A stretch of 64,000 nt of DNA from Sphingobium sp. (GTDB lineage: Bacteria > Pseudomonadota > Alphaproteobacteria > Sphingomonadales > Sphingomonadaceae), in the NCBI GenBank assembly GCA_035196065.1, contig CP136575.1, positions 2,830,769 to 2,894,768 on the forward strand, written 5' to 3'. The notes under the pieces were generated by a model. It worked only from the letters and a program-made list of their open reading frames with translations. It had not been told where the DNA came from and made no database searches. Of the stretch, positions 19,472 through 34,033 are shown in pieces (positions within the stretch are counted from its first letter, which is position 1; each line of letters opens with the position of its first letter). The translations under genes were made by a program, and so were the position numbers.

Positions 19472-20143
19472 ATGACTGATTTTCCATTCGCTATCGTTGG
19501 GTTTGATCTCGACGGAACCTTGCTCGACAGCAGCTATGAACTGGCAGCATCGCTCAACCATGCGCTGGCCAGCATTGGCCGCCCTCCGATCGCAACCAAC
19601 GGCGTAAAGGCACTGGTCGGGATGGGCACGCGGCATATGCTGAAATTGGGGCTGGAACAGTCAGGCGGTGCAGACGATGAAACGGTCCACGCCCTGCACC
19701 CGGTACTGGTCGACCATTATCGCGCAAATCTGGGCAGCAATTGCCCGCCCTTTCCGGGCCTGGAAGCGGCGCTGGATCAACTGGCAGCGACGGGTGCGAA
19801 GCTGGCGGTGGTCACAAACAAGTTTGAAAACCTGGCGGTCGAACTGCTTGGCAATGTAGGGCTGGCCGACCGTTTCGCGACCATCATCGGTGGCGACACA
19901 ATGGGAAAGGGAAATGGCAAACCAAAGCCCGACCCGATCCACGAAATGATCCGGCGCTGCGGTGGTGGCCCAGCCGCCTTTGTCGGCGACACGATCCATG
20001 ACGTGCACGCCGCGCAAGCCGCGGGCATCAAAAGCATCGCCGTCAGTTTTGGCTTCCTTGATCAACCCGCCGAACAATTGGGCGCCGATGCGGTAATCGG
20101 CCATTATCAGGAATTGTTCGACACGCTTCAGCGGCTCGGCTGA
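19472..20143 (+). CDS. gph: Phosphoglycolate phosphatase-like HAD hydrolase
   Basis: A 223-residue HAD phosphatase. Motif I is FDLDGTLLDS near residues 10-19, motif II VVTNKFEN near 109-116, and motif IV FVGDTIHDVHAA near 170-181. It probably removes 2-phosphoglycolate arising from DNA repair; other small phosphates are possible. An ATG at 19460 is an alternative start four codons earlier, with neither having a strong ribosome site. Its end overlaps the convergent nucleotidyltransferase gene by 16 bases. Confidence 0.87.
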   Translation: MTDFPFAIVGFDLDGTLLDSSYELAASLNHALASIGRPPIATNGVKALVGMGTRHMLKLGLEQSGGADDETVHALHPVLVDHYRANLGSNCPPFPGLEAALDQLAATGAKLAVVTNKFENLAVELLGNVGLADRFATIIGGDTMGKGNGKPKPDPIHEMIRRCGGGPAAFVGDTIHDVHAAQAAGIKSIAVSFGFLDQPAEQLGADAVIGHYQELFDTLQRLG

Positions 20144-21234
20144 CCTTTACGCCATTTCACCCATAAATGCCGCGCCAACATCAGCGGCGGCATGCGCAGC
20201 AGGTGCGAGCGGATGTAGAATATGAGCCGAAGCCATTTGCGCGTCGGCCGCCCCCAGCCGTCACGTGCGGTGAGGCGGTGGATGAAGAGATAGTCGGTGA
20301 ATGCAAGCCGTTCCTGTTTTGGATAAACATGGGTTCCATAAAGATGGTGCGAAAGACGTGCAGCACGCATCACCGATGCATATAGATGACGGCACCCGGG
20401 CGCAGCGTAGATATCATGCCAGTATTTTCCGCTGGTGCGGTTCTGCATTTCGTTGGCAATACAATGGAAATCCCACAAGTTTCGGAGACCGCCGGTAAGG
20501 TCGCCGTCTGCGATCAAATGCGCGGCGCAATGACAAAGAATGTCGTGTGGCGACAAAATATAGGTCTTGCCTGGTTGGAAGGGCGTGGGCAGCGGATAGC
20601 GATAATCAAGATCATCGTCAGGATGTTCAAATTGCTCAGGAAGCGGCAGCGCAACCGCGCAATCCAACATCCCTGCAGCATCCGGCGTCGGCCCCGCTGT
20701 CAGCGGCAGGATGGTGTGATGCACGTCGATCATCCGGTCGCGCTCCTTATGGATCATCGGGGGGAGTTCGTGCATATGGTCGCGGTAATAGGCGTCGTCA
20801 TAGGCGTCTTCCTTCACCCATTCCCAGCCGCCTCTGTCCAGCAACAGCGCCTCCACCTGCGGCAGATCTTCGCGCGCCACCATGATGTCGAGGTCGCCAA
20901 TCGATCTGCCGTCACCGGCAAGCAGCCCAGCGGCGGCATAAGCAGTGCCCTTAAGCAGCACGACCTTGCCGTGATAGTCCGCCAAAGCGCGCCGGGCGCA
21001 ATCGGCCTCCCAAAGCGCGGACCGCCGCTGATATTCTGCGTTGATCTGCGCTTCGGCTAGGATTTCTGCGACGTTCGAAGGCACTGACTCAAATTTGAGT
21101 CGCGCTGCCAAGGTACCGATAAGCTGCTCGGCACGCGCCATGGTGAGCAGATCGGTCCAGCCACGCGCATCAAGACTGGCCGTCGATGCGGGGTGGCGGA
21201 GCGCATCGACAAGGAGCATGGCATCGCGCTTCAC
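20128..21234 (-). CDS. Nucleotidyltransferase of the HPr-rel-A type cluster
   Basis: A 368-residue protein of the NTP_transf_5 type. The core motif VVLLKGTAYAAAGLLAGDG followed by RSIGDLDIMV gives LKG at 94-96 and the paired acids at Asp114 and Asp116 of a polymerase-beta-like fold. A GTG start at 21234 overlaps the kinase stop as GTGA, a better start than the TTG further up. The C-terminal 200 residues are helical and unassigned. It is the last gene of the four-gene operon. Related nucleotidyltransferases accompany HPr-kinase-like tailoring enzymes in some lasso peptide clusters, so adding a nucleotide group to a peptide or protein is an idea only. Confidence 0.8.
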   Translation of the reverse strand: MKRDAMLLVDALRHPASTASLDARGWTDLLTMARAEQLIGTLAARLKFESVPSNVAEILAEAQINAEYQRRSALWEADCARRALADYHGKVVLLKGTAYAAAGLLAGDGRSIGDLDIMVAREDLPQVEALLLDRGGWEWVKEDAYDDAYYRDHMHELPPMIHKERDRMIDVHHTILPLTAGPTPDAAGMLDCAVALPLPEQFEHPDDDLDYRYPLPTPFQPGKTYILSPHDILCHCAAHLIADGDLTGGLRNLWDFHCIANEMQNRTSGKYWHDIYAAPGCRHLYASVMRAARLSHHLYGTHVYPKQERLAFTDYLFIHRLTARDGWGRPTRKWLRLIFYIRSHLLRMPPLMLARHLWVKWRKGQPSR

Positions 21235-22085
21235 GGCCGGTCGCCCCAAAGCTGCTCGACCAGCGCAATGGCCTCTTCACCGCTTTCATAATCGATCGCC
21301 AGCGACGGCACCGACTTCACAAAACGGGTCAGCGCCGTAAATCCTGCCTCGCCCAGGGCGACATAGTTGGTCGACGCCTGCGTCAGCCGCATGAAGGTTT
21401 CCCCGGCCGCCACGCTGCGCACCGCCCTTGGTTCGCCAAAGCGCGGAAAGAGCAGCAGCGCCGGTCGGCCGCCCTCGCCCATGCGTGCAATGGCATCAGC
21501 AGGCGGCACCATGTGGCGGATATCGCCTTTAGGCGTATCCCGCATCAACGGGCCAAAGAGCGCGTCTGGCCGGGCCGCCTCCATCGCTGCAATCGCGCTA
21601 TTCTTTAGGCTGATCAGCCGCGGAAAGGGCATGATGTCGCCGCTCAACGGATCAAGCAGCACAAATTCGTCGCCCAGAAAGCGCCAGCCCCGGCAGGACA
21701 GCAAAGCCGCAAGCGTCGACTTGCCCGACCCGGATGCGCCGGTCATCACCAGAACACGCCCGTCGCGCTCAACCGCGCTGGCATGAAGGAGCAGGTGGCG
21801 CCGCCAGCCAAGCGCAACTTGCAGGTTCATCGCCATTTCAGCGGCGAGCAGCCCCTGCGAAAGCGGCAAGGGCGCAGCATCGGGCAGCATATAGTCGCCC
21901 TTGATCGCTACCGATGGCCGCAGCCAGCGCCGCAGCCGGCTAGCAGCTTCCAACCGCACTGTGAAATCGACATATTCCGGTCGCGGATAACCGGCATATA
22001 GCGCGGCCATCCGCTCGATCGGCGCACGCCATACCGAACCGATGCGAAATGCGGCGGGGCCGATGCGGACGTGGAATTCATGCAC
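21231..22085 (-). CDS. HprK-related kinase A
   Basis: A 284-residue P-loop kinase with a Walker A GASGSGKST at residues 116-124 and WRFLGDEFVLLDP near 134-146, where HPr kinase/phosphorylase carries its catalytic Asp. A poorly conserved N-terminal half of about 100 residues precedes it. No HPr or PTS gene is in the window, so its phosphorylation target is unlikely to be known HPr. The GTG start at 22085 lies eight bases inside the PqqD-like gene. The set matches the family named HPr-rel-A; biochemical function has not, to my knowledge, been shown. Confidence 0.85.
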   Translation of the reverse strand: MHEFHVRIGPAAFRIGSVWRAPIERMAALYAGYPRPEYVDFTVRLEAASRLRRWLRPSVAIKGDYMLPDAAPLPLSQGLLAAEMAMNLQVALGWRRHLLLHASAVERDGRVLVMTGASGSGKSTLAALLSCRGWRFLGDEFVLLDPLSGDIMPFPRLISLKNSAIAAMEAARPDALFGPLMRDTPKGDIRHMVPPADAIARMGEGGRPALLLFPRFGEPRAVRSVAAGETFMRLTQASTNYVALGEAGFTALTRFVKSVPSLAIDYESGEEAIALVEQLWGDRP

Positions 22086-22380
22086 CGGACACGCGCTCCA
22101 CTAAGCCCAGATCGGCCAGTTCTTCCAAACGGATGGCAATCAGTGCAACGGCCTCGGCACGCTTGCCAAGGTCGAACTGAGTTGCCAGCCGAGCCGCGAG
22201 CGTTGCCGCGTCGACCGCATCGTTGCGCATGGCGGCAAGCATCTGCGGCACCGGCTCTGTCACCATATGGGTGACCCCGGAACGGCGCTGATAGATAAGC
22301 GTCAGCATATCGAGCGGGTCGACAATAAGGCTGTCGGCGGGTTCTGCTTGGTAAAGTTTATCGGTCGCGGCCACGGCCAA
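22078..22380 (-). CDS. PqqD-like protein of the HPr-rel-A system
   Basis: A 100-residue winged-helix protein resembling PqqD, the peptide-recognition (RRE) fold that carries precursor peptides to modifying enzymes. The LIVDPLDMLTLIYQRRSG and LAARLATQFDL segments suit this fold. The start is uncertain: TTG at 22380 or GTG at 22374, neither with a clear ribosome site. It overlaps the kinase start by eight bases and lies 37 bases after the Tat-exported protein gene. Presence of an RRE-type protein suggests that a peptide or protein substrate is modified, though no short precursor was found. Confidence 0.78.
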   Translation of the reverse strand: MAVAATDKLYQAEPADSLIVDPLDMLTLIYQRRSGVTHMVTEPVPQMLAAMRNDAVDAATLAARLATQFDLGKRAEAVALIAIRLEELADLGLVERVSGA

Positions 22381-22417
22381 GGCGTAACGCGTTGCCGTTA
22401 AAATTCAATCCGCTCAA

Positions 22418-22819
22418 TCAGCGGGGCATTTGCAACGAGGCAAAACAAGTGAAACCGCTCTGCCCAGCCTGCAGCCGGCGGATATAATTCACATAGGCCT
22501 GGCTTTGTTCATAGCTCGTACCCGGCAGGGTCCTGCCTGATAAAGCCCGCTTCACTTCTTCGCCGGTAAATTTCTGGCCGGTGGCAACGAATGATCCCGG
22601 CGTATCAGGCGGCACCAGCTTGCCCGCAGCATCAATATTCATGCCTGTGCCATGCGGCCCGGGAACAGGGATCTGACAGTTAAGGACTGAGCCAGCCGTC
22701 TGCGCCAGCGCCGGACGGACCGAGACGATTGCGGCGACACCGGCCACGCCAAGCATCAGAGCCCGGCGGCTGGATCCACTCGCTTTGTTCGCGTCGCTAT
22801 TACCCTCGTCACCAGTCAT
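22418..22819 (-). CDS. Tat-exported two-cysteine protein heading the HPr-rel-A operon
   Basis: A 133-residue protein. The N-terminal leader has the twin arginines SSRRALMLG (Arg18-Arg19), a hydrophobic stretch, and ALA at residues 37-39 as a likely cleavage site. The mature part, about 94 residues, contains two cysteines, Cys48 and Cys125, at its two ends, suited to one disulfide, and a GTSYEQSQAYVNYIRRLQAG helix. AAGGAA sits six bases before the ATG. No family is recognised. Being first in the operon with RRE and kinase genes behind it, it may be a substrate or partner, but this is inference. Confidence 0.7.
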   Translation of the reverse strand: MTGDEGNSDANKASGSSRRALMLGVAGVAAIVSVRPALAQTAGSVLNCQIPVPGPHGTGMNIDAAGKLVPPDTPGSFVATGQKFTGEEVKRALSGRTLPGTSYEQSQAYVNYIRRLQAGQSGFTCFASLQMPR

Positions 22820-22982: not shown

Positions 22983-23477
22983 TCAGCTGGTCTTTTCCGG
23001 CATCATCGAAGAGTGTAGATGGTCGATCTTCCACGCACCATCTTCGAGCCGGTAGATGAAGGAATAGCGCGCCTTCACGTCGGTTTTTACACCGGTCGCA
23101 GCGTCGGTCAGGGTCACTGTCCAGGTGCCAAGTCGCGCTGCCTGGTTGCAGCCCATCTTGAAAGTGCTGCTATTGATCGTGCCGACCGGGCTGCCCTTGA
23201 GGAAGCCAACGAAATAGTCCTGGATTTCGCTATGGTTGGTGCGCGGCTTGTTCGAAACCGTTGCCAACAGAACGGCGTCCTTGGTGAAAAGCTTGGTCAC
23301 CGTCGCAGGGTCCTTCGTGGCCCATGCCGCGTTGAATTGGCCAAACAGCCCATCGACCTGCTGCTGCGTCACCGCAGCGCATTTCATCCTCGACGTTTTC
23401 GATTTGGCTTCCGCCATAGGCGCGAATGCGACGAGTGCAGCTGCACCGCCTAGGGCCAGGATAGCGTTACGAACCAT
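22983..23477 (-). CDS. Exported SnoaL-like (SgcJ/EcaC family) protein
   Basis: A 164-residue protein with a Sec signal peptide (AILALGGAAALVAFAPMAEA). The mature part has an NTF2-like fold: QVDGLFGQFNAAWATKDPATVTKLF and RYSFIYRLEDGAWKIDHLHSSMMP are typical of the SgcJ/EcaC association domain. These proteins are small-molecule binding or oligomerising domains of mostly unknown role. The ATG at 23477 has GGAGAG seven bases ahead; upstream frame is not used. It stands alone, with a strong terminator behind it. Confidence 0.78.
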   Translation of the reverse strand: MVRNAILALGGAAALVAFAPMAEAKSKTSRMKCAAVTQQQVDGLFGQFNAAWATKDPATVTKLFTKDAVLLATVSNKPRTNHSEIQDYFVGFLKGSPVGTINSSTFKMGCNQAARLGTWTVTLTDAATGVKTDVKARYSFIYRLEDGAWKIDHLHSSMMPEKTS

Positions 23478-23592
23478 ATTAACTCTCCGATATGCGTAGC
23501 GTTTCCCCGCTGCGCATATCGGAACTAATTTATGGCGATTCAACCAGGCGTTACGTCACAGCATGTAACTTGTTACGCCCATCGAACATCAA

Positions 23593-25152
23593 CTAAAATT
23601 CGATCTGCATCCGCGCTTGAAACAGATCCGTGCCATAGGACTGGCGATCGACTGGCACAGTGGACAGCGGATCGACCAAAGAGGCAACGGGCCCGCCATT
23701 GACCTGGATGCGTCCATAGTTGACCATGAAACGGATATAGTCGATCGGATACCAGTTCAGACCGAGCAGATAGCTTGTCTGCGAACCGCCGCGCCCCAGC
23801 CGTCCCGGCAAGGCCGCAAGGCTGCCGATGCCGGTTGTGAAATTGTTGGTGAGGCCGTTTTTCAGCGCGGCATCGTCAAGATCGATATGATCGACGCGCG
23901 CCGCAATCTGGAATGCGCCCGATCCACCCTTGTTCAGCGGGTTCAGCACCTTGGTCCGCGTCCAGATACCTTCGCCACGACGATATCCGCGCGTTTCACC
24001 GGTCAGGAAGAAACCTATTTCGCCATAAGCGCCGAAGTAAGAAGGATCACCTGTCGGCGTTACGGCCAGATTGCCACCGCTGAATGCATCCAGCCCGGTT
24101 GCACGATCGCCGGCACGATAGGCATCAGCCTTCAGCCATTGACCCTCACCCACAAAATAGAGCCCCTTGAACACACCCGCAATCTCGGCCCCGATGATCC
24201 GGTCGCTCTTTGCCGCAAAATTGCCGGTATCGACGAAACGTACGTCCGTCAGCTGCGTGTTGGGACGTGCGCGATACCGGGCGACCTGTCCGGTCGATGG
24301 TGTATTGACGCCAGCAATGCCGCCATTGGATGCAAATTCACGATGCTGGTAACCGAGGCCGAAATGCAACTGCCCACCCAGAGCCTTGGGCGCGTAAACT
24401 AGGCGCGCGGCACCAATATAACCATCATTGTCGAATGTGCTGTCAATGCTGTGCGCAGCAAACATGCCAGCCTCGGCGCGCCAATCGTCATTTCCGCTAT
24501 GCCAGGCCAAGGCAGCGCCAAGACGGCGGCTGTTCAGGAAGGCATCGTTGAATGCCGCGCGTTCAAGGAAGGAGTTGTTGTTCGAGCTCGAAATCTGCTC
24601 CATCCCGTTGAGCGTTTCGAAATTGCCAATGCGCACAACAAGCGGGGCATTGGCCGGGCTGTAGCTTAAAAAGACATCACCGAAGTTAACCGTCGAATTG
24701 GCAAAATCTGCCTCGACCTTATAGCCAAATCCACCCGGCATCGTTCCTTCTGCACCCAGGCGGACGCGGCGGACGCGGCTGTTGAAGCCGAGGTTACGGT
24801 TGGCGGCATAATCGCCGGGCAGACCAACATATCCGGTATCATAATGCAGGCGGCCACGCGGCTTGAATGTCCATCCACCGTCACCCTTGATTTCAGCCGC
24901 CCCTTTGAAGGCGATTTCGGGTGCAGGCTTCGAATCGGGCTTTTTCTCAGGCGCTGGGGCAGGTTGCGGCGCAGGCGCGGCTGCGACCTTTTCGACCTTC
25001 GCCGAAAGTTCCGCGAGTTGCGCCTTCAGCGCAGAAACCTCTGCACGCAATGCCTCGACCTCGGCATCGTTCGACTGCGCCGCAGCTGGATCGGCCATTG
25101 CCAGGGCGATAACCGCCGTACCTGCGAGATAGATCGATTTTGCCAACGTCAT
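23593..25152 (-). CDS. OprO/OprP-type phosphate-selective porin
   Basis: A 519-residue outer-membrane protein. It has a signal peptide (MTLAKSIYLAGTAVIALAMA), then a short coiled coil near residues 30-60 (EVEALRAEVSALKAQLAELS) as in trimeric porins, a Pro/Ala-rich linker, and a beta-barrel with alternating residues ending in a terminal Phe (ARMQIEF). The barrel matches the phosphate-selective porin O/P family. The ATG at 25152 follows AGGAG by eight bases. Substrate may be phosphate or polyphosphate, but in sphingomonads the family has many uncharacterised members. Confidence 0.85.
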   Translation of the reverse strand: MTLAKSIYLAGTAVIALAMADPAAAQSNDAEVEALRAEVSALKAQLAELSAKVEKVAAAPAPQPAPAPEKKPDSKPAPEIAFKGAAEIKGDGGWTFKPRGRLHYDTGYVGLPGDYAANRNLGFNSRVRRVRLGAEGTMPGGFGYKVEADFANSTVNFGDVFLSYSPANAPLVVRIGNFETLNGMEQISSSNNNSFLERAAFNDAFLNSRRLGAALAWHSGNDDWRAEAGMFAAHSIDSTFDNDGYIGAARLVYAPKALGGQLHFGLGYQHREFASNGGIAGVNTPSTGQVARYRARPNTQLTDVRFVDTGNFAAKSDRIIGAEIAGVFKGLYFVGEGQWLKADAYRAGDRATGLDAFSGGNLAVTPTGDPSYFGAYGEIGFFLTGETRGYRRGEGIWTRTKVLNPLNKGGSGAFQIAARVDHIDLDDAALKNGLTNNFTTGIGSLAALPGRLGRGGSQTSYLLGLNWYPIDYIRFMVNYGRIQVNGGPVASLVDPLSTVPVDRQSYGTDLFQARMQIEF

Positions 25153-25206
25153 AAAAATTGCTCCTGCATCATGCGAACAAGCATGTTGGTCCGCATGATG
25201 CAAGGC

Positions 25207-25230
25207 CTGCCCGTCGTCGGTGACGGGCAG
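25207..25230. terminator. Perfect 9-bp stem-loop between porin and TonB receptor genes
   Basis: CTGCCCGTC (25207-25215) and GACGGGCAG (25222-25230) form an exact stem with a GTCGGT loop. It lies after the TonB receptor stop on the minus strand. There is no T-run, so termination is only probable. Confidence 0.5.
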
Positions 25231-25287
25231 TATGACGCTTTTGTTGCAGCTATGTTACAATTTAAAAATGCTGCTGTTAGATGATCG

Positions 25288-27684
25288 TCAGAATGCCACG
25301 GTCACTTCCATCCCGACAGTGCGTGGCGCATTGAAATTGGCATAATCACCCAGCACCAGCCTGTTGGCGTTCGAACGGCGGTAGATGATAGAATTGTTGA
25401 GAAGGTTCCGCGCCCAGAGCGCGACTGTCATATTCTGGCCGTTATCCGACATCGGAATTTCAGCGAGCGACAGTCGGGCATTGACGATAAAGCTCTTGTC
25501 GGTTTTCACATTCTCACTGGCAAAGGTAAAGGCAGGTGACGAATAATTTCCGTCGACATGCAGCTTCAACATTGCGCCATTGGCACTGACCGGAATGTCA
25601 TAATCGATCGAACCCGACAGTGCGTGCTTGGGCGTGTAAAGGATATACACGTCCTGGAACACCGGCGTTGTCACCGGCGGCGTCAATGATGCGTTAAGCT
25701 GTTCCTGAACTGTATTCCGCGCGGGCGGAACCTTGGTGTGGGTATAGGCATAGGACATTCCAAGCGACAGGCCATCTGCCGGCCGCACCGTCAGATCGGC
25801 TTCGATGCCGCGAATTTTCGTCGTCCCGGCGGCGTTCACGGTTTCCAGCGTGTTCCGCACGGTGCCATTGGTTTGCGGGATGAAGAAGTTGAAATCGACC
25901 TGTGTGTCGGTGCGATCCATGATGTAGCCGGCTAGGTTCAGGCGGACGAGGCGATCGAAAAATTCGGTCTTCGCGCCAACTTCGTAAGACTTCACGGCCT
26001 CCGGACCGAACGACCGGTAGTTGAGCGAGCGTGAACTGGCCCCGCCGGCGCGATAACCGGTCGCATATTTCGCATAGAGATTGATGCTGTCGCTTGCCTG
26101 CCAGGCAATCGTCGCAAGCGGATCGAAGCGGCGGTCATTTTCGCGGAAGGTGAAACTTGTCGCCGCTCCATTGACGGTGAAAAGGCGACCATTTTTCTCG
26201 TCACGGGTCATGCGGCCACCCAGCGTGAGCGCAAGCGTTTTGAGATTATAGGTCGCCTGGCCATAGACGGCATAGCTTTTTGCAAAGGCGACGCTCGCAC
26301 GCGCAACCGGCGATAGCGGATAGGTAGCCGGATCGATGATCGAATAGGCGGTTCCGTCGGCGTTCCAGCGGTTAGTGTTGGGCGTGCGCGCAGAATCTTC
26401 GGCGCGTTCGTTGAAATAATAACCGCCAAAGACATAATCAAGATCGCCGGCTTTGCCGACCACTTGCAATTCCTGGCTGAACTGGCGCTGATCGAGCGTG
26501 GCGATGCTGTAGCGGCTGAAGCTGCCATTGGGTGCGAAAACCGGGGTGCGATTGGCAAGACCCGAATTGTCGAACTGCCGGTCGCTTACGGTGCGCCAAG
26601 CGGTGATTGAACGGATCTCGGCATCGTCGGTGATGTCCCAAGCCAGTTTTGACGTCACGCCAAAGGTTTTGCCAATGCTGGGCTGTTGCAGCACGCCGAC
26701 AGAGGCGGTTTTAGCGCGCTCGGGCTGGACGGTTACAAGGGCGGGAAGCGGTGCCACAAAGCCAGACGGCAGGCGCCCGCCATTGGCCTGGATCTGGGCA
26801 ACGGTTGCAACAGGGCGACCGGTGGGGTTGAAATTGATCAACTGGCTAAGGAAAGCCGTGCTTTCATCATGGCCCGAATCGATCGAGAAATCGGCGGTGA
26901 AATCTTCGCTGGGCTTCCAGCGAACGGCGGCGCGGCCACCATAACGGTGAAAATAATTCCAACCCTTTTGCCCGGCGAGCGGGTTTTGGGTGGTGGCATT
27001 CTGATGCTGTAGCGACGCGTCCAATTTGATCGAGAAGCCCGCAACTTCAGGCAGATCAAGCCGCAGCGTGCCATTGTAACGCCCGTAATTGCCAAGCCCT
27101 GCCGTCACGCGGCCGCCAAATTCGCCGCTCGGTGCGCGCAGCACCATATTCACGGCACCGCCTTCGGTGTTCCGGCCGAACAATGTGCCTTGTGGCCCTT
27201 TCAGCACCTCAATCCGTTCGACATCAAGGAAGCCGGCATTCAGACCATGCTGGCGGCCGAGATAAACGCCATCAACATAAACGCCGACACCCTGTTCGCG
27301 CGCCGGCTGATTGGCATCATCAGGAACGATACCACGCATGCCGATGGTCAGCGCGGTCTGGCGCGATTCAAAGGTCGAAATGCGCAGCGAGGGGATACCG
27401 CCATCACCCAGATCCAAAAGGCTTGATGCCTGACGCTTTTGCAGATCCTCATCGCTCATCACCGCAATTGCGATCGGCGTTTCCTGCAAATTGGTTTCAC
27501 GCTTGGTCGCGGTCACGACAATGTCGACCAGCCCGCTGCTATCCTGCGCCTCGCCAAAGGCTTCACCGCCAGCTTCAACGGCGCCTGCGTCAGCATCAAC
27601 AGCCATGGCATCGTTGGCAAATGCCGGCACCGTTGCAAAAGCTGCAAGCGCGGTGCCTGCGAGAAAAGCGGATCTTGGAAACAT
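25288..27684 (-). CDS. TonB-dependent outer-membrane receptor
   Basis: A 798-residue receptor with a signal peptide (RSAFLAGTALAAFATVPAFA), a TonB-box-like DIVVTATKRE near residues 54-63, and a plug (YVDGVYLGRQHGLNAGFLDV, KGPQGTLFGRNTEGGAVN). A 22-strand barrel follows and ends in VTVAF, with a C-terminal Phe. The plug is the kind common in sphingomonads, which use many such receptors for siderophores, vitamins or oligosaccharides. GGGGTG lies eight bases before the ATG. It is divergent from an SDR gene, and a 20-base palindrome lies in the shared upstream region. Substrate is not evident. Confidence 0.92.
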   Translation of the reverse strand: MFPRSAFLAGTALAAFATVPAFANDAMAVDADAGAVEAGGEAFGEAQDSSGLVDIVVTATKRETNLQETPIAIAVMSDEDLQKRQASSLLDLGDGGIPSLRISTFESRQTALTIGMRGIVPDDANQPAREQGVGVYVDGVYLGRQHGLNAGFLDVERIEVLKGPQGTLFGRNTEGGAVNMVLRAPSGEFGGRVTAGLGNYGRYNGTLRLDLPEVAGFSIKLDASLQHQNATTQNPLAGQKGWNYFHRYGGRAAVRWKPSEDFTADFSIDSGHDESTAFLSQLINFNPTGRPVATVAQIQANGGRLPSGFVAPLPALVTVQPERAKTASVGVLQQPSIGKTFGVTSKLAWDITDDAEIRSITAWRTVSDRQFDNSGLANRTPVFAPNGSFSRYSIATLDQRQFSQELQVVGKAGDLDYVFGGYYFNERAEDSARTPNTNRWNADGTAYSIIDPATYPLSPVARASVAFAKSYAVYGQATYNLKTLALTLGGRMTRDEKNGRLFTVNGAATSFTFRENDRRFDPLATIAWQASDSINLYAKYATGYRAGGASSRSLNYRSFGPEAVKSYEVGAKTEFFDRLVRLNLAGYIMDRTDTQVDFNFFIPQTNGTVRNTLETVNAAGTTKIRGIEADLTVRPADGLSLGMSYAYTHTKVPPARNTVQEQLNASLTPPVTTPVFQDVYILYTPKHALSGSIDYDIPVSANGAMLKLHVDGNYSSPAFTFASENVKTDKSFIVNARLSLAEIPMSDNGQNMTVALWARNLLNNSIIYRRSNANRLVLGDYANFNAPRTVGMEVTVAF

Positions 27685-27809
27685 AATGGTCACCCCGTGT
27701 GATTCGTTGCTGTTGGGGCGGCACTAGGGCGGCGACGTTACAGGCGAGCGACGCTTTGGTGACGGATCAGCGTCAGATTATTGACCGATTTATGACAGTG
27801 GGACGCCCT

Positions 27810-32356: not shown

Positions 32357-34033
32357 CTATCTCTGCGATTTGGCAACAACAGCCGCGTTTTGGGTTCGGT
32401 CCTCAACTTCAGGGTAGCTGAGCCACAAACTGCCTAATGCCGACTTTAACGGGTCGAGCCATTTTTCATAGGCGCGCCATTGATCGACACCGTCGCGATT
32501 GATCGGACGGCGCACCTGTTCACTCGATGCTGTGCGGACTGCGCGGCGGTTTTCATGGAAGTTGAGGCAGGCCTCTTCAAACGGCACGCCAACATAGTCG
32601 AGCATTGCCCGCACATGCACCTCGGGTTCCTCGATCAGCTGTTCATGGATCACACGATGCACCCGACCGGGAAGCACGCGATCAAAATGTGCCATCAACC
32701 GCACATAATCGGCATAATAGCGCCCCATGTCGGATAGGCTGTAACTGAATGCCTGTCCCTTGGCGAAATGCTGGCGGAAATTGGAAAAGCAGCAGTCAAG
32801 CGGATGGCGCCGCGCATCAATGATCTTCGCGTTGGGCAAGATCAGGTGAATAAGGCCGGTGTAGATCCAGTTGTTCGGAAGCTTGTCGATAAAGAATGGA
32901 CGATCCGTCTTGCGCTGAACGCGGGTGCGGTTCAGAAAATCGTCTCCCAGTTCAGCCAAACGGTCTGCCGACATCTGGACAACGGCATCAACCCAACCGC
33001 TGGCCACGCCCTTGCCCTCGCGAAGTGCGATTGCCGGCATGTCGGGCAACTCCATCGTGCCTTCGATCAGGCTATGGCTCGCCAATATCTGTTCAAGCAG
33101 CGTTGAACCTGCCCGCGGCATTCCCAGGATGAAAATCGGATCGGCAGCGCCCTCTTCCAGATTGGAACGGTTGGACAGGAATTCTGGGGTGAAGCGCGCG
33201 ATAATCGCATCGACATGCGCGGTAATGATGTCGGGATCATATTGCAGCTGGCCGTGCCTTATCCGGTTCGCCTGGTCATAATGGCCAAATGATGCCTCCG
33301 CCTCGCGCCGGTCGTCATAAGCCTTGCCCAGCGCAAAATGCAAATGCAGCCGATCATCGTCGGAGAGGCTATCGCCGCTGTTCAGCGCATCTTCCATGGC
33401 GGCGATATCGGCGGCGTCAAATTGCACCGTTTTCAGATTGGCAAGGCTCCACCAGACTTCGCCCAACGTCGGCTCTTCGGCAAGCGCGCGCCGGTAGGCA
33501 GCAATGCCTTCGTTCTGCTTGCCAACGGTTTTCAGCACATGGCCATAGCTCATCCAAAGCTTTGCATGCTGCGGGAACCGCTCAGTCAGCGCGCCATAAA
33601 GTGTCAATGCCTCGTCATATTCGCCAATACGGCCTAGCGCGGCAGCCATCAGGCTCTGCCCGCCGGCATCATCACCTTCGGCGGCGAGAACGTCGTTCAA
33701 CAGCTCGACCGTCTCTTCAAACCGGTTCTGCCGATACAATATGCCGGCAAGATTGCTCCGCGCGACAATGAAATCCGGCGCGAGTTCGAGCGCACGCCGG
33801 AGCAGTGCCTCACTATCCTTATATCGCCCGAGCCGCGCCGCCAGTTGCGCCATCAGTCGGATCGCCGCGACATCCAGCGGATCTTGCCGCAAATGGGCGC
33901 GCAATAACGGTTCGGCATCCGCCAGACGGTCTTCGTTGATCGCCGACGCCGCTTCGATCAGGTCGGGATTGCGGATGCCACGGTTGACATAGCGACTGAC
34001 CGGATCGGTGGATTGCGGGATCATGGACGCCAT
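32357..34033 (-). CDS. TPR-repeat sulfotransferase
   Basis: A 558-residue protein with tetratricopeptide repeats (about residues 35-250) followed by a sulfotransferase domain. The 5'-phosphosulfate loop ILGMPRAGSTLLEQIL is near residue 300, and FIDKLPNNW and DARRHPLDCCFSNF follow. It transfers sulfate from PAPS, with an acceptor, probably a protein or carbohydrate, chosen through the TPR part. It starts two bases after recF and is in the same run with pgsA and moaDE. Similar two-domain proteins are common and unassigned in sphingomonads. Confidence 0.87.
   Translation of the reverse strand: MASMIPQSTDPVSRYVNRGIRNPDLIEAASAINEDRLADAEPLLRAHLRQDPLDVAAIRLMAQLAARLGRYKDSEALLRRALELAPDFIVARSNLAGILYRQNRFEETVELLNDVLAAEGDDAGGQSLMAAALGRIGEYDEALTLYGALTERFPQHAKLWMSYGHVLKTVGKQNEGIAAYRRALAEEPTLGEVWWSLANLKTVQFDAADIAAMEDALNSGDSLSDDDRLHLHFALGKAYDDRREAEASFGHYDQANRIRHGQLQYDPDIITAHVDAIIARFTPEFLSNRSNLEEGAADPIFILGMPRAGSTLLEQILASHSLIEGTMELPDMPAIALREGKGVASGWVDAVVQMSADRLAELGDDFLNRTRVQRKTDRPFFIDKLPNNWIYTGLIHLILPNAKIIDARRHPLDCCFSNFRQHFAKGQAFSYSLSDMGRYYADYVRLMAHFDRVLPGRVHRVIHEQLIEEPEVHVRAMLDYVGVPFEEACLNFHENRRAVRTASSEQVRRPINRDGVDQWRAYEKWLDPLKSALGSLWLSYPEVEDRTQNAAVVAKSQR

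Follow-up and report, generated by a model that had tools for sequence, protein, structure and literature searches.

A four-gene cassette in Sphingobium that probably modifies an exported protein through a shared leader

The 64,000-nucleotide stretch of Sphingobium DNA analysed here (assembly GCA_035196065.1, contig CP136575.1, positions 2,830,769 to 2,894,768; hereafter the window) carries four closely packed open reading frames (ORFs) on the minus strand, running from 22819 down to 20128. They encode a small exported protein (here called gene1), a PqqD-like protein, a kinase related to HprK, and a nucleotidyltransferase. We propose that the cassette is probably dedicated to modifying a single exported protein, gene1, under the guidance of a RiPP recognition element (RRE; RiPP, ribosomally synthesised and post-translationally modified peptide). 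Gene1 would be phosphorylated, probably extended by the nucleotidyltransferase, and exported by twin-arginine translocation (Tat). Gene1 is likely to be the protein on which such a leader-guided modification acts. Across Proteobacteria, the product of the gene preceding the RRE has a common Tat-like leader, RRxLLxGxx…VVTLRPxxAxA, joined to unrelated mature domains, and among 150 Sphingomonadaceae genomes gene1 is found in the same ones as the kinase.

The features of the cassette, in window coordinates, are:

22418-22819, minus strand: gene1, exported two-Cys protein and proposed substrate, 133 residues, with an RR and AxA signal
22703..22819, minus strand: leader and Tat-like signal of gene1, residues 1-39 (R18R19, AIVSVRPALA, predicted cut after A39)
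22436..22450, minus strand: C-terminal T124-C125-F126-A127-S128 of gene1, candidate modification site from alignment conservation
22078-22380, minus strand: PqqD-like protein, putative RRE, 100 residues (TIGR04353 match, AlphaFold2 model, Foldseek)
21231-22085, minus strand: HprK-related kinase A, 284 residues (TIGR04352; H101, G119xGKST124 and D139-E140 conserved)
20128-21234, minus strand: NTP_transf_5 nucleotidyltransferase, 368 residues, GTG start (PF14907; GRSIGDLD and downstream Asp/His conserved)

The PqqD-like and kinase genes share 8 bases (22078-22085), and the kinase and nucleotidyltransferase genes overlap as GTGA (21231-21234). An earlier note on this DNA had given the same gene order and both overlaps, which agree exactly with the ORF coordinates. 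No fifth partner was found, and the cassette proper consists of four genes. A possible terminator between gene1 and the PqqD-like gene (22424-22410) was rejected, being within the expectation from shuffled sequence, with no obvious shared hairpin in the relatives inspected.

Shared leader and mature domains of the substrates

The leader has a constant layout: a polar segment of 10-45 residues, RR[RK]xLLK/MxG, a hydrophobic run, and [VI][VIM][TS][LVI][RQ]x[SPG]xxAxA. Gene1 fits the pattern of a Tat substrate, with a twin-arginine n-region (R18-R19), a hydrophobic stretch and an AxA site (ALA, residues 37-39), and from this sequence pattern we infer that it is exported by Tat. The proteins that follow the leader are diverse. 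When 135 distinct substrates are compared by blastp over their mature parts, they form 21 groups, of which three are large. A profile-profile comparison of 31 sphingomonad gene1 sequences with 22 substrates from XrtA loci aligned 41 columns (P 2e-7, probability 93.6). The alignment comprises the leader and little else, stopping just past the first mature Cys and leaving the rest of the mature parts unaligned. Such a combination of conserved leader and variable core is that of a RiPP-type precursor.

The mature part of gene1, whose cysteines are Cys48 and Cys125, has no family match in Pfam or NCBIfam. A known domain was also sought in nine diverse substrates, and for these and gene1 there was no real match in either library, the two weak NCBIfam matches lying far below their cut-offs. 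The AlphaFold2 model of gene1 has a mean predicted local distance difference test (pLDDT) score of 62. It contains a mini-domain at about residues 60-118 (pLDDT about 85), while the leader and the C-terminal tail with TCFAS are of very low confidence, which is as expected for flexible segments. No fold match for this model was found in the PDB, the overall confidence of the model being low.

A leader-only model of 29 positions was searched over 150 whole Sphingomonadaceae genomes. It gave 44 matches at E ≤6e-5, all of them gene1 leaders of genomes that also carry the kinase (44 of 45), and the next best match anywhere was at 1e-3. In the 105 kinase-negative genomes there was nothing at E ≤1e-4. 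The positive side of this search is partly circular, since the model was built with several of those leaders included; the lack of matches in kinase-negative genomes is free of this circularity. The kinase-positive genome that was missed (G050) has a gene1 match starting only at profile position 44, and so its leader is probably missing.

Ordinary Tat proteins are expected in every such genome. Judged by its matches, the leader is more selective than one would expect of a generic Tat signal. It could still be argued that it is just a Tat signal of the ordinary kind, alike between proteins through export only, and that the RRE, kinase and nucleotidyltransferase act on some other, unannotated peptide: RR and AxA are indeed features of Tat and signal peptidase, and small ORFs can be missed. 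However, the leader model finds gene1 and nothing else at E ≤1e-4 in the 150 genomes, and the cassette showed no further recurrent ORF, which leaves this explanation very improbable.

Distribution of gene1 and the kinase

The kinase was counted above the TIGR04352 cut-off in three genome sets. It is present in 45 of 150 Sphingomonadaceae genomes (about 30%), in 8/289 genomes at class level and in 61/398 at phylum level; the cassette was also found in many Beta- and Gammaproteobacteria. The gene1 profile (E ≤1e-4) finds the identical 45 of the 150 Sphingomonadaceae genomes, with none discordant (45/45 against 0/105; hypergeometric 2e-39, a statistic that ignores the relatedness of the genomes). 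The co-occurrence is kept where the two genes are unlinked, gene1 being 160-280 kb away on the same contig in two genomes (G043, G123) and on another contig in a third (G041). There are at least four within-genus differences in presence or absence, all concordant. One is in the genus of the window, where G000 and G069 have both gene1 and kinase and G138 has neither, and the others are in the genera of G021/G108, G036/G119 and G051/G128.

The earlier note had supposed that the cassette acts on a protein or peptide. Gene1 is supported in this role by the leader that unrelated mature domains have in common, and by the absence of that leader from kinase-negative genomes.

Gene order was followed in two sets. 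Sixty kinase neighbourhoods were extracted and their genes called by a simple script. In the first set, of 88 kinase genomes, 75 have a PqqD-like gene upstream, 76 have a nucleotidyltransferase gene downstream, and an upstream gene for a leader-bearing protein is likewise found in 76. Several of the absences are contig or locus ends. The second set comprises 82 named loci on contigs and plasmids of Sphingobium, Sphingomonas, Sphingopyxis, Duganella, Massilia, Thiobacillus, Rubrivivax, Thioalkalivibrio, Vibrio and others. It is a fair test of the PqqD, nucleotidyltransferase and leader models, because these were built from the first set, though some species may overlap. PqqD was found in 79 of the 82 loci, the nucleotidyltransferase in 81, and a leader protein within 1 kb in 61, with five further leader proteins 1.2 to 2 kb upstream. 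The recurrence of the gene order in most of the 88 genomes, together with the co-occurrence of gene1 and kinase, is far beyond chance. The earlier note had made its idea of a single system depend on the four genes occurring together in other genomes, and this they do.

Some loci depart from the common layout. On a Vibrio alfacsensis plasmid (L158:4607-4861), an 84-residue ORF absent from the gene table of the record lies between substrate and kinase; its place is that of the PqqD-like gene, and it may encode an RRE that has diverged. Four Sphingobium loci (L162, L164, L166, L167) have gene1 at a greater distance upstream, at least about 1.3 kb further from the PqqD-like gene, and the DNA between the two is unassigned. 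In one low-quality genome (G007:C1:1125679-1126504, L150) the kinase is split over two frames, which is decay or sequencing error, and gene1 matches over the leader only.

The modifying proteins

The kinase is matched by TIGR04352 ('HprK-related kinase A', 235 bits, cut-off 200), the PqqD-like protein by TIGR04353 ('HPr-rel-A system PqqD family peptide chaperone', 55 bits, cut-off 35) and the nucleotidyltransferase by PF14907 (141 bits, cut-off 31). The first two are above curated cut-offs and adjacent, with PF14907 adjacent to them, and the window cassette is therefore a member of the HPr-rel-A system. This system is known by name; the present analysis describes a proposed target, a leader and a C-terminal motif for it. 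The family libraries searched give no target or function for it, and it does not appear in two surveys of RREs. The open literature yielded no paper on HprK-related kinase A, TIGR04352/TIGR04353, or the target, leader or motif, subscription journals being outside the search. The NCBIfam name 'peptide chaperone' implies that a peptide target had been suspected.

The AlphaFold2 model of the PqqD-like protein (pLDDT 91.8) has the winged-helix RRE fold. Its best Foldseek matches in the PDB are complexes of lasso B1 proteins with leader peptides (6jx3 and 5v1v; probability 1.00, template modelling score 0.63-0.76, E only 1.6e-3 to 3.6e-3), and the next are ThcOx and PqqD. The model supports a role for this protein as a leader-binding RRE. 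By Foldseek, it has the same fold as PqqD and other RREs (ThcOx, PbtF). Its partners are a kinase and a nucleotidyltransferase, whereas RREs of the PqqD/ThcOx/PbtF type are partnered by a radical SAM enzyme or a cyclodehydratase.

When the 88 kinases are aligned, the His, the GxGKST loop, Asp-Glu and later Lys, Gly and Asn residues are invariant or nearly so. The same is true of GR-x3-DxD and later Asp and His residues in 75 aligned nucleotidyltransferases. By these residues, both enzymes look active. At two loci of Betaproteobacterial type (L108, L114), a relative of the TPR protein encoded at 32357-34033 of the window lies between or next to the kinase and nucleotidyltransferase. We read its C-terminal part as sulfotransferase-like, hinting at a further tailoring step.

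The window kinase shares P-loop ancestry with HprK, the HPr kinase/phosphorylase, including the conserved His, Walker A and Asp. An HPr kinase as such was rejected, TIGR00679 scoring only 17.6 bits against a cut-off of 240. The earlier note had stated that there is no HPr gene here, and none is present among the seven proteins scanned at the cassette. The sole HPr gene of the genome is found about 1 Mb from the cassette, at most about 2 kb from a short HprK-like match, which makes the window kinase very unlikely to be the HPr kinase of the cell.

The closest precedents are lasso peptide clusters. In Bradymonas, an HprK-like kinase phosphorylates a Ser of the lasso precursor; the RRE greatly accelerates the reaction and the core alone is not phosphorylated (PMC10368454). 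PadeK, ThcoK and SyanK phosphorylate the C-terminal Ser of lasso peptides, and PsmN, a nucleotidyltransferase homologue, is genetically needed for hexose addition to the phosphate in pseudomycoidin (PMC8498205, PMC9266682). The phosphorylated lasso clusters (PadeK, ThcoK, SyanK and BsfK with a B1 RRE; PsmK/PsmN) have in common with the window cassette a separate RRE, an HprK-like kinase and sometimes a nucleotidyltransferase. They differ in that the proposed substrate in the window is a whole protein with a Tat-type export signal and some 95 residues in its mature part, and in that the window kinase motif ends in Asp-Glu rather than Asp-Asp. The cassette as a lasso peptide cluster was rejected, a Pfam scan of 16 proteins encoded around it in the window (about 13.3-32.4 kb) having shown no B2 protease or lasso cyclase C.

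Candidate site of modification

All aligned gene1 homologues end in [ST]C-Φ-x-S, with T124, C125 and S128 invariant in alignments of 31 and 34 sequences. Substrates of the XrtA type end in SCWxSF, with C, W and S invariant in 22. More generally, an [ST]C-hydrophobic-x-S motif is present in the last 40 residues of 95 of the 135 distinct substrates, in seven groups not joined by blastp. Among 853 other genes, only two have it, and both encode unlinked or truncated gene1 proteins. The tail that carries the motif is probably flexible, according to the AlphaFold2 model, and the motif (T124-C125-F126-A127-S128 in gene1) would be the best candidate for the modified site.

In the third large group, of 26 proteins mostly of Betaproteobacterial type, the leader is followed by a domain of the form C..PSG..S...C.G.SPGYWK...AAYLNA. 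At loci L067, L069, L070, L115 and L199-L229, substrates of this type show it as C..PSG...C.G.SPGYWK...WP...AAYLNA.

Proposed pathway

Beyond the leader as a shared address, we infer each step. The PqqD-like RRE would bind the N-terminal leader of the gene1 precursor, as its fold suggests, and present the precursor to the kinase. The kinase, by comparison with the lasso kinases, would phosphorylate a side-chain hydroxyl in mature gene1, most likely in the C-terminal motif. The nucleotidyltransferase would then probably add a nucleotidyl group or a sugar to the phosphate, in the manner of PsmN, after which the modified gene1 would be exported through Tat and its leader removed. Since the leader doubles as a Tat-type signal, modification would occur in the cytoplasm, before export. 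Phosphorylation or nucleotidylation as the type of modification is suggested by the conserved catalytic residues and by the lasso-peptide precedent. Phosphorylation at the C-terminal motif followed by a nucleotidyltransferase step is plausible but tentative; if it is true, the second step would be a new modification on exported proteins.

Several observations weigh against the proposal. No recognisable leader protein is present near some kinase loci (12 of the 88 genomes upstream, and Sphingopyxis loci), and a few kinase loci are without a nucleotidyltransferase in the DNA examined, some of these being contig or locus ends. The kinase motif is His-Lys-Asp-Glu, with Glu invariant in the 88 kinases, where the lasso kinases have His-Lys-Asp-Asp (PMC9266682). 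Finally, the [ST]C motif is absent from the third large group of 26 substrates, and the modified residue therefore cannot be in the C-terminal motif everywhere.

The kinase and nucleotidyltransferase are two distinct enzymes, a conserved active site being present in each, and the nucleotidyltransferase is occasionally missing next to the kinase, though partly at contig ends. Gene1 might thus simply be phosphorylated, with the nucleotidyltransferase acting otherwise, for example by adenylylating or uridylylating gene1 at another hydroxyl independently of the kinase. We consider this unlikely: the near-constant presence of the nucleotidyltransferase in the named loci and its 4-base overlap with the kinase in the window suggest one pathway, and in lasso clusters that have this trio the nucleotidyltransferase acts on the phosphate (PMC9266682).

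Small lasso peptides are the setting in which RRE-guided kinases were known, whereas the trio described here is linked, by the leader that they share, to secreted proteins of full size. The HPr-rel-A system, hitherto named but targetless, would gain a specific target and a candidate site ([ST]C-Φ-x-S). In its widest form, the proposal is of a general, leader-addressed marking of exported proteins in Proteobacteria, in which the same trio acts on interchangeable, unrelated secreted domains and leaves a phosphodiester-linked sugar or nucleotide. This is possible but rather doubtful; if true, it would amount to an undescribed type of protein modification in bacteria.

Genomic neighbourhood

In many genomes the cassette lies between phoR-pst and gph-glmU-glmS. 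Gene1 is divergent from phoR in many relatives, and remains beside phoR when the enzymes are elsewhere, as might be expected if it were not the substrate but a periplasmic partner or sensor, the enzymes modifying another protein or a small molecule. This is distinctly improbable. The unrelated mature domains have only the leader in common, as precursors recognised by an RRE should; gene1 and the kinase co-occur without exception, with the leader model empty in kinase-negative genomes; and the phoR/pst/glm linkage exists without the cassette too.

Five cassette-free genomes (G138, which is of the window's genus, and G003, G020, G047 and G054; L240-L244) have phoR directly beside gph-glmU-glmS with nothing between. 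The cassette therefore appears as a discrete block, gained or lost at a recurrent site. A functional link to the phosphate regulon or to UDP-GlcNAc was rejected, since the phoR/glm adjacency persists in genomes without the cassette; because kinase-negative genomes keep it, the linkage of phoR-pst and glmUS is ancestral synteny and is no evidence on function.

The window itself has a different neighbourhood. Where most relatives have phoR-pst beside gene1, positions 22983-27693 encode a SnoaL-like protein, a Porin_O_P protein (phosphate-selective porin family) and a TonB receptor, and pstB of this genome is about 1.4 Mb from the cassette.

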